Positions 35,269 through 43,856 of a stretch of DNA of 64,000 nt are shown here, in pieces. The position numbers and the translations under genes were made by a program. Below the pieces are notes generated by a model. It was not told the origin of the DNA. It worked only from the letters and a program-made list of their open reading frames with translations, and did no database searches. This stretch comes from Chloroflexota bacterium (GTDB taxonomy: Bacteria; Chloroflexota; Anaerolineae; Anaerolineales; Villigracilaceae), in contig JAJYLQ010000009.1 in NCBI GenBank assembly GCA_021787595.1, positions 62,001 to 126,000 of the forward strand, given 5' to 3'. Every line of letters begins with the position of its first letter. Within the stretch, counting starts at the first letter, position 1.

Positions 35269-35937
35269 CTAAACCGAAACTTCTTCCTGCAACGGCGCGG
35301 TGGGTGCGATCAGGAAAATCAAATTATCCCAAACCACGTGACTGACGATCAACGTTCCCATTGGAAAACCAAGGCCGGCCATCGCACTCCAGAAGCCGCC
35401 AGCGACCGTCGCAGCGCCGATCAGCGTGAAGTTTCCGCTTGCGATGTGTGCGCCGCCATACGCGAGTGTGCTTAGCACTGTCCCCCACCAGCGGCCCATG
35501 CGGCGCGTAAAATGATTCTGGATGAAGCCGCGCCAGAACAATTCTTCTGCCGGGGCGGTGATCAAACCCAAGCGCAGCATCAACTCCTGGCGCGGACGAA
35601 GGCGCTTGAGGCCATAGATCGATTCGATTTGTGATCCGCCTTGCGGAAGAATGCGGCGCGCGATCCGGTCGCCAATGTGGAAGATTCCGTAAAGCACACC
35701 GGCAGAAGTCAATCCCAACAAAACATCGCGCAGAGTAATTCGGGTCTTGCGGAGTTCAGGCTGGGTCGCCAGCGAGAGTCCGCCCAAGGCGATCCCCGCG
35801 CCCGTCATCCGGTCCCAGAAGCGTTTGCGCGGCCCGCGAAACGTCAAACCAAAGAGTGTAAAAGCCAGTCCGAGGCCAAGTCCCAAAAACGCGAGCGAGT
35901 CATAACGATGTTTAGCCACGAACGCCGCCCAATGCAA
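35269..35937 (-). CDS. CPBP family intramembrane protease
   Basis: About 222 residues. The Abi/CPBP motifs are LITAPAEELFWRGFIQNHF (near residue 125), LAYGGAHIASGN and VSHVVWDNLIF, all on hydrophobic segments. Family members are glutamic-type membrane proteases involved in prenyl-protein processing or immunity to bacteriocins. The start is unclear: TTG at 35937 or GTG at 35919. Both overlap the end of the upstream fused LLM-UbiA gene, so the two are co-transcribed. Confidence 0.88.
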   Translation of the reverse strand: MHWAAFVAKHRYDSLAFLGLGLGLAFTLFGLTFRGPRKRFWDRMTGAGIALGGLSLATQPELRKTRITLRDVLLGLTSAGVLYGIFHIGDRIARRILPQGGSQIESIYGLKRLRPRQELMLRLGLITAPAEELFWRGFIQNHFTRRMGRWWGTVLSTLAYGGAHIASGNFTLIGAATVAGGFWSAMAGLGFPMGTLIVSHVVWDNLIFLIAPTAPLQEEVSV

Positions 35938-37918
35938 GTCCGATCACGAGCAGCATTCCAAAGGCCGCGTGCAGCTGCGCGGTTTCGATGTCAATCCTGG
36001 CAATGGCGCGCTGCTGGCCGCTAATGCCCATCGCAGACGCTTGAACAGCCCGAACCAGCAATGGCAAAGCGAACAATGCGAGCAAACTGGTTACCGGCAA
36101 ATCCTTGAACAGGACTGCGATCACAACGGATAGAAACGCGGCTGTGATAAAGCCGACATAAGCGAGGAAGGACCATCTGCGGCCGATGTGCGCCGCAAAC
36201 GTGCCGATACCGTAACGCGCGTCGTCCGCGATATCGCGCCATTCGTTGCCATGCAAGACAGCCGTGATCAACAAGCCAATCGGAATACTGACAATGAACG
36301 CGTCGATACCCCATGCGCCCGTGATGACATAATACGCGCCGATCACTGTCAATGGGCCCATCAATGTGAAGACCAGTGGAATACCCGCGGCTTTATATTT
36401 AAACTGGAATGGCGGCGCGGTGTATCCATAGCACGCAATCAAACCCAAAACGCCAAGCGCGATCACGGGCCAGCCGCGCACAAAGGCCATGCTGATTCCG
36501 AGAAGCGACGCAAGGCCAAAAATAAAAATGCCCAGCTTGAAGGCTTCGGATTCTTTGATGCGCCCCTTGAGCAAAGTCTGGCTGGCGCGCGGCGAAGTGA
36601 TCGAGTCGACGCCATTGCGGACATCGTAAATCTCGTTGATGATGTTCGCGCCAATTTGCAGCAGGACCGTCGAAGCCAAGGCAATGACGAACATTTGAAG
36701 ATCGAATCTTCCCTGGGCAAAAGCCAGCGCGCCCGCGACAGCCACCGGCGTATATGCGCCCGTTAAACTGAATGGACGCGCGATCTCCGTCCACGCGCTG
36801 AATTTGCGCCAGGCTTTTTCAAACAGATTCAAACGATCCAGCGAATCAGAAGCGACGGTAACACTTTCCTGGATTGCGGCAACGGGAACGGTTTCTTTTA
36901 CGGCCAGCGAGCCGTAAAGCGCGGCCGCTTCCAGAATTGGTTGAATGTGTTCGTCTTCCTGAAGGATTGGCTGGAGGATGGGCGTATCCATGCCGGCCTC
37001 GTTATAGCGCGCGGCGGCTTCGGCCACTTCCTCCGATGTGCCGCACAACATAAAGGCATCCAGCATTTCATCGGGGATCAATTCGGCGGCCTTGTGATAA
37101 TCCTCGGCGCGCCACGCAGCCCCGATTTGATCGCGCAGTTCAGGTTCGAAGCCAGCCTGCTGCAGCGAGAAATTCGAGAGAACGCTCATCATGTAGATGA
37201 CGAACGGCTCGCGCTTGGCCCGATTGAGCGCGGCGCGGCGGGACTTGTCCACGAGCGTGAGCAGATAACCGGCAACGTCCACGGCGTGTTGATCGCGACC
37301 AGCTTCGAGCGAGGTTTTCCGCAATTTAGCGATGAGCCGCTTCAGGTTCGGGATCGATTCGGCGGGTCTCGATAAATAGCCGTCGGCTTTGCGACCGGCC
37401 AATTCCAAAAACGCGGTCCGATACGCGGCGACATAAATCGGAACGCGGTGCACGGGCGGGAACATCGGCTGGATCGGCGGCAGATTCGGCGCCACAGACG
37501 GGATGCGTCCGCCGGCCCACATCGTCCGCAGCAAATCAATCGCCGCGTCGACTCGTTCCACCGCGGCTTCGGGATCATACGGAAGCCCCATTTGCGACAA
37601 TCGAATCGGGATGGTCGTCCCCAGCCCGAGGCGGATGCGGCCCGGAGCCATTTCATCCAACGCCGAAACGGTCATGGCGATCAAAGCCGGATGGCGCGTA
37701 TTCGTGCTGAGCGCGCCGAGGGCGACATCAATATCGGGCACTTGCGCGGCAATCGCCGAGGCGTATGTGACCGCGTCGCGTTCGTATGGCGTATCGTGAA
37801 TCCAAACCGAGTGCAGGCCGCGGCGGCGGGCGTCATCCGCCCAGCGAACAACATCCGAGACTTTGCCGCGTCCGGCAAAACCAATTCCAACAGGCCGGGC
37901 AAGTTCAAACATGGTCAA
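35912..37918 (-). CDS. Fusion: LLM-class flavin oxidoreductase + UbiA prenyltransferase
   Basis: 668 residues in one uninterrupted frame. Residues 1-340 form a luciferase-like (F420/FMN) TIM barrel: VGIGFAGRGKVSDVVRWADD, VALGALSTNTRHPALIAMTV, GRIRLGLGTTIPIRLSQMG and LCGTSEEVAEAAARYNEAG. Residues about 375-668 form a UbiA/MenA membrane prenyltransferase with NIINEIYDVRNGVDS and GNEWRDIADDARYGIGTFAA, both Asp-rich motifs intact, and about eight helices. MenA-type enzymes prenylate quinone precursors. The fusion suggests a redox step linked to prenyl-lipid synthesis. The enzyme substrate is unknown. Confidence 0.9.
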   Translation of the reverse strand: MTMFELARPVGIGFAGRGKVSDVVRWADDARRRGLHSVWIHDTPYERDAVTYASAIAAQVPDIDVALGALSTNTRHPALIAMTVSALDEMAPGRIRLGLGTTIPIRLSQMGLPYDPEAAVERVDAAIDLLRTMWAGGRIPSVAPNLPPIQPMFPPVHRVPIYVAAYRTAFLELAGRKADGYLSRPAESIPNLKRLIAKLRKTSLEAGRDQHAVDVAGYLLTLVDKSRRAALNRAKREPFVIYMMSVLSNFSLQQAGFEPELRDQIGAAWRAEDYHKAAELIPDEMLDAFMLCGTSEEVAEAAARYNEAGMDTPILQPILQEDEHIQPILEAAALYGSLAVKETVPVAAIQESVTVASDSLDRLNLFEKAWRKFSAWTEIARPFSLTGAYTPVAVAGALAFAQGRFDLQMFVIALASTVLLQIGANIINEIYDVRNGVDSITSPRASQTLLKGRIKESEAFKLGIFIFGLASLLGISMAFVRGWPVIALGVLGLIACYGYTAPPFQFKYKAAGIPLVFTLMGPLTVIGAYYVITGAWGIDAFIVSIPIGLLITAVLHGNEWRDIADDARYGIGTFAAHIGRRWSFLAYVGFITAAFLSVVIAVLFKDLPVTSLLALFALPLLVRAVQASAMGISGQQRAIARIDIETAQLHAAFGMLLVIGLALGGVRG

Positions 37919-37988
37919 CTCCTTCCAATAATGCGCCGATTATATGACGCAGCAAAACGGCAGACAAATGACAAAAGTCATCAAAGAA

Positions 37989-39375: not shown

Positions 39376-39828
39376 TTACGGCAGATAAAATTCATCCTTG
39401 AACTTTTGAAGCAAGTCGCCAAGTGTGCCGATTTCAAATGGAAGATGAATGGTTGCTTTCGATTTTAGAAAATGTTCCTTGTCATGTGTCACAAACCAAT
39501 CCGCTTTTGCGTGAATGGCTTCGGCAAGCGCGCGCGCATCGGCAGCATACGCAATCTCTCGTCGAGCCGACTCGATTTGTTTCGATGTTGGTGCGGAAAC
39601 TGTCTGCACTTTTCCAATTTCCAATAATTGCGCCAGCAAAGGCAGCGAGGCGGGCGCTTTTCTGCGGACAACTTCATCCGCTTCACGTAAAACGTTGGGG
39701 CCGATTATCAGTTCCAGCAACTCTGCTTCCCCCAATAAAAATAATTTACGCGCTCCGCCCGTTGGCGAAAGCACGGCGGCAAACAACACACTCGTATCCA
39801 GAAAAACCTTAACGCTTTTTCGAGTCAT
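39376..39828 (-). CDS. PIN-domain ribonuclease toxin
   Basis: 150 residues. Acidic PIN residues are visible in VFLDTSVLFAAVLSPTGGAR (Asp near residue 11), EADEVVRR, DARALAEAIHAKADWFVTHD and the final HDKEHF. The family consists of toxin RNases, here of the PilT type. The start overlaps the end of the AbrB-like antitoxin gene by 20 bases. This is the only toxin of the island that looks intact. Confidence 0.88.
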   Translation of the reverse strand: MTRKSVKVFLDTSVLFAAVLSPTGGARKLFLLGEAELLELIIGPNVLREADEVVRRKAPASLPLLAQLLEIGKVQTVSAPTSKQIESARREIAYAADARALAEAIHAKADWFVTHDKEHFLKSKATIHLPFEIGTLGDLLQKFKDEFYLP

Positions 39829-40078
39829 ATTCGGCTCGGACGCCGCGCAACGTCTTCAACATGGATTCAAGCGTTTCTCCGGATTCGCGCCATTCACCGG
39901 CTAATTTGTCAGCAATCTCATCCACGCGTGAACGCCGCGGACTCATCACAAAGACGCCATCGCCGAGATTAATCAACGTCAGCGTATCGCCCTCGTCAAT
40001 GCGATTTTGTTCGCGCAGTTCCTTTGGCAAGGTAATTACACCGCGCTGAACCACTTGGACCTTGAACGTGTTGCTCAT
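39809..40078 (-). CDS. AbrB/SpoVT-family antitoxin
   Basis: 89 residues. The swapped-hairpin DNA-binding domain is VVQRGVITLPKELREQNRID with EGDTLTLINLGDGVFVMSP. The C-terminal part should bind the PIN toxin coded next. A perfect 13-base inverted repeat lies 12 bases before its start and is the likely autoregulatory operator. Confidence 0.9.
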   Translation of the reverse strand: MSNTFKVQVVQRGVITLPKELREQNRIDEGDTLTLINLGDGVFVMSPRRSRVDEIADKLAGEWRESGETLESMLKTLRGVRAEYDSKKR

Positions 40079-40237: not shown

Positions 40238-40603
40238 CTATCCCAGGAACTTCCTCACCGTTTGCGCGGCCTTGAAGGCAATAGCAGCTTCATCCTTATC
40301 TGCCTCGACTCCCGGATAACGAACATCAACTGAGAACCGTTCGAGCTCTTTCAAATCGGACAAAAGAATTTCCAAACTTGGTTCCACTTCTTTACACAGC
40401 TTGAGAAGTTCGAGCAGTTTGTGAATCTTTGGAATATCCTGATTGTGTTCCTGCAAATACGCCTTGAGATATTTTTAGGCGCATTGCTGGGCGTGAAAGC
40501 ATGCCGCATCATAGACAGGATGTTTGCGGGCGCGGAACATTTTCTGCGCTACAATAAAATCGCCTTCCGCCTTTTGTACCCACTCAGCGGTGAGAGACTT
40601 CAT
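40238..40603 (-). pseudogene. HEPN-domain toxin gene with an in-frame stop
   Basis: From ATG 40603 the frame gives MKSLTAEWVQKAEGDFIVAQ and CFHAQQCA, then TAA at codon 43 (40475-40477), then KYLKAYLQEHNQDIPKIHKL to the normal end. The family has Glu at that position (QQCAEKYLKAYL), so GAA has become TAA. The gene overlaps the MNT antitoxin gene by 20 bases. HEPN toxins cut RNA; this copy cannot be made full length. The downstream ATG-less part (72 residues) might still be translated from an internal start. Confidence 0.85.
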
Positions 40604-40946
40604 ACAACACCTTGCCCTGCGTTGTAATTTCCTTCAAAAAAGAATCTCCCAATGCAATGCGGTTCGCTAAATTCTTTGGCGTGCGGACGATCAAATCCAA
40701 TCCAAACAGATCTCGTTCAAGACTCTGATCAATAAGCAAGGCTTGCTTCATTTCTTTCAACGAGGTTTCCATCACAATGAGCAAATCCACATCGCTTTCG
40801 GGGCGCGGATTGCCGCGCGCATACGAACCAAACAAAATGATTTTCTGCGGATGGAATTTTTCCACAATCTGACGCACGATCTCGTCAATTGCCTTTTTGG
40901 GGATGCGCTTGCGTTCGTAAATGGATGGAACAGGGATAACTGTCAT
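40584..40946 (-). CDS. MNT-type nucleotidyltransferase antitoxin
   Basis: 120 residues. KIILFGSYARGNPRPESDVD followed by LLIVME is the minimal nucleotidyltransferase motif GS-X9-DxD of MNT proteins. These neutralise HEPN toxins by adding AMP to them. The partner HEPN gene directly downstream carries a stop codon. The MNT frame is intact. Confidence 0.9.
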   Translation of the reverse strand: MTVIPVPSIYERKRIPKKAIDEIVRQIVEKFHPQKIILFGSYARGNPRPESDVDLLIVMETSLKEMKQALLIDQSLERDLFGLDLIVRTPKNLANRIALGDSFLKEITTQGKVLYEVSHR

Positions 40947-40984: not shown

Positions 40985-43807
40985 TTACTTTTTCGAGGCT
41001 TTCTTTGCATTAGCTGGTTTCTTCGCCGCGCTTTTCTTCTCAGCTTTTGCTTTCACAGCCCTTTTCTTTGCAACAGACTTCTTCACAATCTCTTTTTGCG
41101 TTTTACGTTTTGCGCCTTTCTTCGCTGCCGTTTTCTTCCTCGGCTTCTTCACCTTCTCAACTTCTTTCTTCTCACTTTCCACTTTGACCCCAAGCATCTC
41201 CTCCCACTTCTTCTCCATAGACTCCACACCCGCACCACTCAAAACGTCATGTACCACTTTCCACTCACTATCTTCCACGAATCTCCAATCCATGAACACG
41301 TGATGCTGATACGCATTCAATTCAACATACAAGCCTTTTTGCCAGAGTTCCTCACACGAGCGGATGTATTCCAAGTGTGTGACGTAATCTTTGAAAATGA
41401 CATAACCTTCAAACGGCAAACTTAATCCCTCAGCAAGAGACTTCTGCCGCAAGTCGCCGGTGCGCTTATAGAGATACGCGGCGGAGTTTTTGATCCAGCC
41501 GCGCACATCGGAGAAGCGATTGTTGTAAAGAATCAGTCCGCGTTCATCGCCGTGACAATTGGAATAAGCAAAAACATTTTCATCCACGCTGCCGTTGTCG
41601 GTGAAAAGATCGTAGAGAAAGAACTGTTCCACGTCCGCGAACAGGTATCGGCGGTGAAGGAGCGGGAAAATTTTCCACTCGTGGCCGCGGATCAAACCCT
41701 CGTTGGGCGTTTCGTCCCATTTTGGCATTCGAAATTCCATCCCATATTTTTCGTGGAAGCCTTCGATCTGTCCGTGGCCGAACATCGGCAGGCCGGGCAA
41801 TGTCGCAAGCACGGTCGCGACGCCGAAATATTTGTCGCCGTTACCAAATTGCTCGACCGCAGTTTTCTCGTCGGGGTTGTTCATGAAGTTGACGTAACGT
41901 TTGAGAATTTGCGGATCGAACTCGAGCGTGTTCTTGATCGCCATGCGATACTTGGCATTGTCTTCGTCGCGCAGCATGTGCATGAACGCCGAGTTGTACA
42001 CGCGGTGCATTCCGAGCGTGCGAACGAAATAACCTTCCATCAACCAGAACGCTTCCGCGAGCAGCAACGTATCCGGGACTTCCGCCGCGACGCGATCCAC
42101 AACCTCGCGCCAGAACTCATTCGGGATTTTCGCGTCGAACTCGGACCGGGACATTCCATGCTCGGCCCTCGACGGGATCGCGCCGCCGGAACCAAGTTCC
42201 GGGAACCACAAACGCTCGATGTGCTTCTTCGCCAGCGTCATCGCCGCGTCGAAACGGATGATGGGAAAATTGCGCGCCACGTGCAAAATGGTTTGAATGA
42301 CGGCCTCGCGAACTTCCGCTTTTGAATAATCAAGCTGCGCGGTATCGTTCCACGGAAATGACGTGCCGTCGTTGCCATGATAGATATATTTCGTTTGACC
42401 CGTTCCGTAGTTATAGTACTTGAAGACCACTGACGCGTCGGAATGATTGTAGTAATGATCTTCAATCATCACCGCGCCGCGCGAGTCGTCGGAAAGATTT
42501 TCGGAATTGAATGTGTAAGAAGGATACGGCAGATGATCCAGAGACAAAAACCAATCAGGATGCTCGATGACCCAATTCGAGTCAATGCCCATGTGATTCG
42601 GAACCATGTCCGCCGAAAGACGGATACCGCGCGCCCAGGCGCGTCCGCGCAGGTGGTTGAGCGCGTCCCAGCCGCCAAGGTCACTGGCGATATCATAAGA
42701 ATAAAGCGAATACGCCGAAGCGACTGCGTCATCCTGTCCCATGCGCTGTTTGATCTTCTGTGAAGCGCGGCTGCGTTCCCACAGACCGATCAGCCACAAA
42801 CCCGTAAAACCGCGGTCGCGCAGCAAATCCAATTCTTCATCGGGAATTTGATCGAGCGTTTTGATCCAGCGTTGGTATTTGCGCGAAAGTTGTTCCAGCC
42901 AAACGTACGTGTTCTTCGCCATCAACACCAGACGCGGCATCCAGTCACTGTCGGCACTATAACGTTCGTACTCCGGCTCGCCGCGGAAATCCGGCAATGG
43001 CTCCGCGCCGTGAAAATCGCCGTGCCCATGCTGGCGCATGACTTCCTCGCGCACAAAGTCCATGGCGCGCAGAATGCGGCTGATGATGTCCTCGCCGAGG
43101 ATCGCGCCCCACTTATCGAGCAGGAATTGCAATTGACCTTCGAGGGAATACGGCGAAGCTTTGCTTGGAGCAGTCAGGATCTCATACAACGTATCGCCGC
43201 CGCCCGCACCGTTGACCATACGCGGCTGATTGGCAAGGAAATTGCCGAGCAGTGAAATCGAATCAACATAAGCTGTCTGACGCAAAACCGAATCGTCGAA
43301 CAATTCCTTATAAGTTTGCGCAGCGGGATTGTTGTTGGTGATGTTCAACAACAACATTTCTTCCAATGTTATGGCCCTCACCCACGCTTCGCGGCCCTCT
43401 CCCAGGTTTGGGAGAGGAGCTGGGGTGAGGGAAAGATACCCCTGCACCGTCATCTCGCCGCGATAAACCGGCATAGGCGGAAATTCATCCGTGAATTTGA
43501 ATAATGTTTCTTCCAGCCGCGCGCCCAGATTGGATTGCAAAGACTCCAAAGCGCGCGTCATCACGCCGGGATTCTGTTTCTCGTGTTGGCGGATGATCAA
43601 ATGCAGGATCTCATCAATTAGTCCAAGCGCGTAAATGTCGGAGGCGGGGACGGCGCGTCCGCTGACGGCGTAGATTCGCTCCGTTAAACGGCGCGCCGCC
43701 CCAAAATCCGAAAGAACGACGCGGCCATCCGTCGCAAAAATCGATTCGTTAAATTGATATTTTTGCCGCGCACGCCGCGAGATATGAAATTCAAAAGGAA
43801 TGTCCAT
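40985..43807 (-). CDS. GH13 alpha-amylase family protein with H1-like basic tail
   Basis: About 940 residues. An N-terminal region (about 320 residues, starting FHISRRARQKYQFNESIF) precedes the GH13 barrel: ADMVPNHMGID, IIRFDAAMTLAKKH (nucleophile), LLLAEAFW (acid/base) and FMNNPDEKTA. The last 60 residues are a Lys/Ala repeat like histone H1 (KKSVAKKRAVKAKAEKKSAA). Residues about 125-144 (TPAPLPNLGEGREAW) are coded by an R3 repeat. ATG 43807 is chosen over 43825, and neither has a good ribosome site. Confidence 0.88.
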   Translation of the reverse strand: MDIPFEFHISRRARQKYQFNESIFATDGRVVLSDFGAARRLTERIYAVSGRAVPASDIYALGLIDEILHLIIRQHEKQNPGVMTRALESLQSNLGARLEETLFKFTDEFPPMPVYRGEMTVQGYLSLTPAPLPNLGEGREAWVRAITLEEMLLLNITNNNPAAQTYKELFDDSVLRQTAYVDSISLLGNFLANQPRMVNGAGGGDTLYEILTAPSKASPYSLEGQLQFLLDKWGAILGEDIISRILRAMDFVREEVMRQHGHGDFHGAEPLPDFRGEPEYERYSADSDWMPRLVLMAKNTYVWLEQLSRKYQRWIKTLDQIPDEELDLLRDRGFTGLWLIGLWERSRASQKIKQRMGQDDAVASAYSLYSYDIASDLGGWDALNHLRGRAWARGIRLSADMVPNHMGIDSNWVIEHPDWFLSLDHLPYPSYTFNSENLSDDSRGAVMIEDHYYNHSDASVVFKYYNYGTGQTKYIYHGNDGTSFPWNDTAQLDYSKAEVREAVIQTILHVARNFPIIRFDAAMTLAKKHIERLWFPELGSGGAIPSRAEHGMSRSEFDAKIPNEFWREVVDRVAAEVPDTLLLAEAFWLMEGYFVRTLGMHRVYNSAFMHMLRDEDNAKYRMAIKNTLEFDPQILKRYVNFMNNPDEKTAVEQFGNGDKYFGVATVLATLPGLPMFGHGQIEGFHEKYGMEFRMPKWDETPNEGLIRGHEWKIFPLLHRRYLFADVEQFFLYDLFTDNGSVDENVFAYSNCHGDERGLILYNNRFSDVRGWIKNSAAYLYKRTGDLRQKSLAEGLSLPFEGYVIFKDYVTHLEYIRSCEELWQKGLYVELNAYQHHVFMDWRFVEDSEWKVVHDVLSGAGVESMEKKWEEMLGVKVESEKKEVEKVKKPRKKTAAKKGAKRKTQKEIVKKSVAKKRAVKAKAEKKSAAKKPANAKKASKK
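43375..43431. repeat. R3 repeat inserted in frame in the GH13 gene
   Basis: CCCTCACCC and GGGTGAGGG ends with CCTCTCCCAGGTTTGGGAGA inside. It is translated in the GH13 frame as a Pro/Leu-rich loop. Confidence 0.75.
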
Positions 43808-43856
43808 GCGCCTATGATATACCATTTGCAGAATTCAGGTATACTTTCGTCATCAC

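Follow-up and report, generated by a model that had tools for sequence, protein, structure and literature searches.

We show that a bacterium of the Chloroflexota encodes, within the 64,000-nucleotide stretch of DNA analysed here (the window), an LLM (luciferase-like) barrel and a UbiA/MenA-type membrane prenyltransferase as one protein, and that in two genera this fusion gene and its CPBP partner gene occupy the exact place of MenA and a three-gene ABC importer. Our best reading is that the fusion takes the place of MenA in producing a respiratory (mena)quinone, the ring of which would have a source other than the Men and futalosine routes. The features of the locus are as follows.

35912..37912, minus strand: LLM-UbiA fusion gene, 666 aa, ATG start, TAA stop at 35914-35912, called from the open frame and 45 aligned full-length homologues.
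37918..37930, minus strand: Shine-Dalgarno-like stretch GGAAGGAG, upstream of the fusion ATG.
36986..37864, minus strand: LLM domain (Bac_luciferase, PF00296), aa 17-309; nearest solved structures, Mer.
36812..36907, minus strand: variable linker between the domains, about aa 336-367; 22 to 71 residues among homologues.
35912..36811, minus strand: UbiA/MenA-type membrane prenyltransferase domain, aa 368-666 plus stop; nearest solved structure, human UBIAD1.
36605..36637, minus strand: first Asp motif, NEIYDVRNGVD, aa 426-436; N426, D430 and D436 conserved in at least 95% of 45 homologues.
36221..36247, minus strand: second Asp motif, NEWRDIADD, aa 556-564; N556, R559, D560 and D564 conserved in at least 95% of 45 homologues.
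35269..35919, minus strand: CPBP (Rce1-like) membrane protease-family gene, best start GTG 35919; Pfam Rce1-like, E 1.4e-11.

No stop codon interrupts the minus-strand frame at 35912-37918. The initial annotation had read it as one frame of 668 residues; the single open frame stands, and the length becomes 666 residues, counted from ATG 37912, the likely start, which lies 8 nt downstream of AAGGAG. The TTG at 37918, two codons upstream of this ATG, is unlikely to be the fusion start and is an artefact of the ORF rule. An LLM barrel and a complete UbiA domain with both Asp motifs had also been recognised in this frame, and Pfam matches and motifs confirm them: Bac_luciferase, of the LLM superfamily, matches aa 17-309 (E 3.6e-48, 165 bits vs a gathering cut-off of 27.9), and UbiA (PF01040) matches aa 390-621 (E 4.4e-30, 105 bits vs 34.2). 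All hydrophobic segments of the protein fall inside aa 402-666. An AlphaFold model built from a six-row alignment was of low confidence (pLDDT 45.5).

The LLM half has as its nearest PDB entry Mer (1z69, E 8e-27), the F420-dependent methylene-tetrahydromethanopterin reductase, with which it shares a TRHP-type segment. Its nearest NCBIfam models are likewise those of Mer and F420-dependent LLM enzymes, and it falls below every equivalog cut-off: among the curated F420-dependent LLM groups the best scores were 131.5 bits (cut-off 276) and, for Mer, 111.6 bits (cut-off 348.7). In contrast to Mer, fusion homologues carry H-[DE]-[STA] at the position of the DH motif, and no tetrahydromethanopterin context was seen. 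Score and residues together rule out a Mer-like or one-carbon role for the fusion; since the Mer motif residues are not conserved, the substrate of the LLM half cannot be read off from them.

The UbiA half resembles most closely MenA (PRK06080 / TIGR00751), the 1,4-dihydroxy-2-naphthoate polyprenyltransferase, with which it shares the UbiA fold, both Asp motifs and a place beside UbiE/MenG. MenA models are its nearest NCBIfam families, but it reaches none of their equivalog cut-offs (159 of 277, 151.8 of 264 and 82.6 of 102.15 bits); it further differs from MenA in the added LLM barrel and in occurring mostly in genomes without MenB and MenD. When the UbiA domains of 45 fusions were compared with 33 other Chloroflexota UbiA proteins, they formed one clade of their own (support 100/100, one change). 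The only PDB match found was human UBIAD1 (8djk, E 1.1e-25), the menaquinone-4 synthase, which prenylates a reduced naphthoquinone, reduced menadione; UBIAD1 differs in being eukaryotic and single-domain, with its reductase supplied separately. We regard the fusion as a predicted MenA-like prenyltransferase in a new architecture; its scores place it outside the MenA equivalog.

Full-length relatives in a single frame were found at 92, 72 and 71% identity to the window fusion, and 45 such homologues served as the alignment set for residue conservation and linker length. The same two-domain order, which the initial annotation had proposed to look for across Anaerolineae, is conserved there and far across the phylum; its opposite, that relatives would always be two separate genes, fails, since the only two-frame case seen is that of G878, where a frameshift and a short deletion lie between the domains. 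A mutated stop codon or a chimeric assembly is ruled out by the many genomes that keep the same stop-free frame, and decay of the window copy by its 92% identity to that of G004, with every motif kept. Within the family of the window, the fusion occurs in 8 of 152 genomes, one of the eight copies being decayed. Elsewhere in the same class it was found in family f57; a sample of 400 genomes from the whole phylum contained it in roughly 45 to 50, and another class (that of G755) in 58 of 177 genomes, including 24 of the 53 of high quality. The named loci are without exception Chloroflexi/Anaerolineae MAGs, and a plasmid search gave no full-length match. The patchy distribution in family f1 (5 of 26 genera) reflects losses or transfer. 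Because the fusion is old and conserved, a joint function of its two halves, as first suspected from the layout, is likely.

The CPBP gene starts at GTG 35919 and overlaps the end of the fusion, at TAA 35912-35914, by 8 nt. This overlap had been noted at the outset, and the link proves stronger than a single locus could reveal: using a profile made from clear cases and scanning 2 kb downstream of each fusion, we found a CPBP gene on the same strand, mostly overlapping, in 44 of the 46 loci where the sequence extended for 700 b or more. Its catalytic-type motifs EExxxR, YxxxH and HxxxD are kept, with E131, E132, R136, Y160, H164, H200 and D204 at least 90% conserved among 27 sequences. No CPBP gene was found beside unfused MenA among the relatives examined at that locus. 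The fusion almost always has this membrane protein as its partner.

The replacement of MenA is apparent from gene order. In the genome of the window (G000) the fusion is not the sole MenA-class protein: a canonical MenA lies away from it, at G000:C60:114671, beside UbiE and an ABC importer composed of an NMT1/SsuA-type binding protein, an ATPase and a permease. This unfused protein is a true MenA (NF004751, 338 bits vs a cut-off of 264), and the UbiE-MenA-importer block recurs in G004, G005, G012, G014 and G018, as well as in G008 without the adjoining UbiE. The order in G000 is XDHfad-UbiE-MenA-ABC permease-ATPase-SBP-GlyK-HADH-GH13, where GlyK is glycerate kinase; in G002, of the same genus, it is XDHfad-UbiE-CPBP-FUSION-GlyK-HADH-GH13, with the flanking genes identical in order and orientation. 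A second genus repeats the exchange, with UbiE-MenA-permease-ATPase-SBP-LLM2-CofC-CofD in G012 and UbiE-CPBP-FUSION-LLM2-CofC-CofD in G160. Neither G002 nor G160 has a second MenA-like gene above about 94 bits. The UbiE proteins of G002 and G000 are 78% identical and are therefore the same post-MenA enzyme, presumably receiving a similar product.

The importer may bear on how the acceptor reaches the prenyltransferase. Canonical MenA beside an NMT1/SsuA-type importer (L171:10635-14333, on G000:C60, and likewise in G004, G005, G008, G012, G014 and G018) belongs, where tested, to genomes without MenB and MenD, an arrangement that looks like salvage of a quinone precursor. In G021, which has MenB and MenD, MenA and UbiE are present at the locus and the importer is absent, as would fit an importer serving to supply the acceptor to cells that cannot make it. 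Three further Chloroflexota loci (L105:7823-9511, L106:7702-9402 and L107:8872-10614) encode an ABC-importer permease (BPD_transp_1) fused to a MenA-type UbiA domain, immediately preceded by an ATPase gene in L105 and L106 and, in L105, with an NMT1-type binding protein upstream. These proteins resemble the LLM-UbiA fusion in joining another N-terminal partner to a related MenA-type domain in the same phylum; they differ in that the partner is an importer subunit, probably delivering the acceptor from outside, which suggests that import of the acceptor is coupled to prenylation. Both arrangements, which point to acceptor import in the phylum, would also agree with the fusion being an ordinary salvage MenA, into which DHNA or another exogenous naphthoate diffuses while the LLM half serves as a membrane-tethered flavoenzyme or regulator without catalysis in the pathway. 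We regard this as quite unlikely, given that the LLM half is highly conserved, with many invariant residues across the 45 aligned homologues, and that no intact member of the fusion clade was seen without it.

A census with curated models covered 37 genomes, 31 of them fusion bearers. MenD exceeded its cut-off only in G021, G742 and G809, and MenB was present in these three and, probably, in G878; both were absent from 28 of the 31 fusion bearers, which rules out standard menaquinone biosynthesis as the general context of the fusion. Among these 28, a haem-copper oxidase was found in 25 and UbiE over cut-off in 24 (33 and 32, respectively, of all 37 genomes), and in 20, including G002 and G160, the fusion is the sole MenA-class protein (at least 140 bits). 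CofH was confined to G641, G719, G742, G789 and G809 and absent from the other 32 genomes. The CofH model also matches the Thermus and Deinobacterium controls, which we take to be futalosine users, and within the census it matches CofH bearers only; judged indirectly through these matches, no futalosine enzyme MqnC or MqnE was seen in the 37 genomes.

The surroundings of the fusion are in keeping with a quinone-type pathway, as the initial annotation had supposed, the support coming from UbiE adjacency in several families, MenA replacement in two genera and a polyprenyl-diphosphate synthase neighbour in one family. The genome's UbiE adjoins the fusion in G002, G160, G551, G683, G690, G704, G719 and G878; the adjacency is seen in families f1, f85, f88 and f107, in differing orientations. 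In f88, the gene of a polyprenyl-diphosphate synthase overlaps or abuts the LLM-UbiA gene, which in G008 comes after a cytochrome c-FeS-NrfD module. These contexts, together with the oxidases, are signs of respiratory quinone synthesis. The f88 synthase is itself fused to a YjbQ domain (L103:3279-4658 and L104:10836-12218, at the start of the LLM-UbiA gene; both domains were named from sequence only). In G010 (L042:8480-10601) the fusion is decayed, with about 430 internal residues missing, the adjoining UbiE is frame-broken and CPBP is intact; no haem-copper oxidase was found in this genome.

Several genomes carry the fusion and a separate MenA: G000, G004, G008, G090 and G094 have another MenA-class gene, and G742 and G809 have a men cluster with its own MenA. 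The two are therefore not simply interchangeable everywhere. The MenA retained in G000, G004, G742 and G809, and the fusion bearers in which no haem-copper oxidase was found (G008, G761 and G821), would suit an enzyme that makes some other prenylated lipid, protective or signalling, outside respiration, with its UbiE neighbourhood incidental. Such a role is unlikely in our view, as it has to contend with two exact replacements of MenA next to an orthologous UbiE, with UbiE adjacency in four families in differing orientations, and with the 20 genomes that have no other MenA-class protein.

We consider it fairly likely that the fusion is a membrane enzyme with two activities in the biosynthesis of respiratory quinone, its UbiA domain standing in for MenA and its LLM domain conditioning the acceptor ring; we infer MenA catalysis for the UbiA half and, for the LLM half, action on the acceptor, probably by reduction or oxidation. 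Lying on the cytosolic side, the LLM domain would use F420H2 or FMNH2 to change the acceptor ring in its redox state or hydroxylation and pass the conditioned ring to the prenyltransferase domain, which, as in MenA, would transfer a polyprenyl chain onto an aromatic, most likely naphthalenoid, hydroquinone acceptor; the prenylated product would then go to the UbiE/MenG methyltransferase. In the form that we prefer, the LLM domain would reduce an incoming quinone ring to the prenylatable hydroquinone, in parallel with the reduced menadione of UBIAD1, and reduction of a diffusible quinone before prenylation would explain why no importer is needed beside the fusion.

The order of the two steps could also be the reverse, as the initial annotation read it: the UbiA half would make (demethyl)menaquinone and the LLM half would act afterwards on the prenylated product, for example by isoprene saturation or ring hydroxylation. 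The shared operon and the UbiE context are compatible with this order, and many LLM enzymes are reductases or monooxygenases; the known saturation of an isoprene unit, by MenJ, uses FAD. We find it rather improbable, because it leaves unexplained why the importer was replaced along with MenA, and because LLM barrels are soluble and a long prenyl chain would be an unusual substrate for them. The synteny swap fits an LLM domain that supplies or conditions the acceptor ring at least as well as one that acts on a prenylated quinone.

With respect to the cofactor, CofC, CofD, CofE and an NADPH-F420 reductase, all over cut-off, lie directly upstream of the fusion in G160, and CofC/CofD/CofE homologues are present at other Anaerolineae loci examined. 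F420 is therefore plausible as the cofactor in Anaerolineae, with FMN as the alternative. The FO synthase CofH was not found in G160; an argument from missing CofH to FMN was dropped in view of the CofC, CofD and CofE genes beside the fusion there. The same set without CofH occurs at L089/L190 (G160), at L175 (G000) and in other Anaerolineae, where the cells may import FO or synthesise it with an enzyme not yet recognised.

Other genes of the window include one at 40985-43825 (minus strand) for a 946-aa alpha-amylase-family protein with an unusual N-terminal region and a Lys/Ala-rich, histone H1-like C-terminal tail. A PIN-like and AbrB-like pair resembling a toxin-antitoxin system (39376-40078, minus strand) and a small nucleotidyltransferase gene (40584-40946) were both read from the letters alone.

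No described enzyme of this layout had been known at the outset, and our searches of the literature likewise found no account of an LLM-UbiA architecture. Redox enzymes joined to UbiA have a precedent in the IspH-UbiA 'Rosetta stone' fusions of sulfate reducers (PMC4746011). These also combine an N-terminal redox enzyme with a C-terminal UbiA domain in genomes that have a separate UbiA/MenA, but IspH is an iron-sulfur enzyme on the prenyl donor side, and the fusions belong to Desulfobacterales (PMC4746011). In a survey of 26,264 bacterial genomes, Chobert et al. (2026) reported that most lineages in which no quinone pathway can be recognised belong to Bacillota and Chloroflexota, and suggested that other quinones may await discovery (PMC13386864).

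The recurrence of the fusion and its exchange with MenA and the importer point to a mode of respiratory quinone synthesis that has not been described, and a new quinone route behind the fusion is possible. More tentatively, and with some doubt on our part, much of Chloroflexota might respire with a quinone whose ring originates outside the Men and futalosine pathways, with LLM-UbiA and CPBP as its signature enzyme and an LLM domain that would make the prenyl acceptor from an internal aromatic compound, so that an importer would be unnecessary. The quinone-pathway gap of the Chloroflexota now has a named gene, a CPBP partner, a natural swap with MenA and its importer, and a list of genomes, and the question of which quinone these respiring Chloroflexota use, and from what ring it is made, becomes directly testable.
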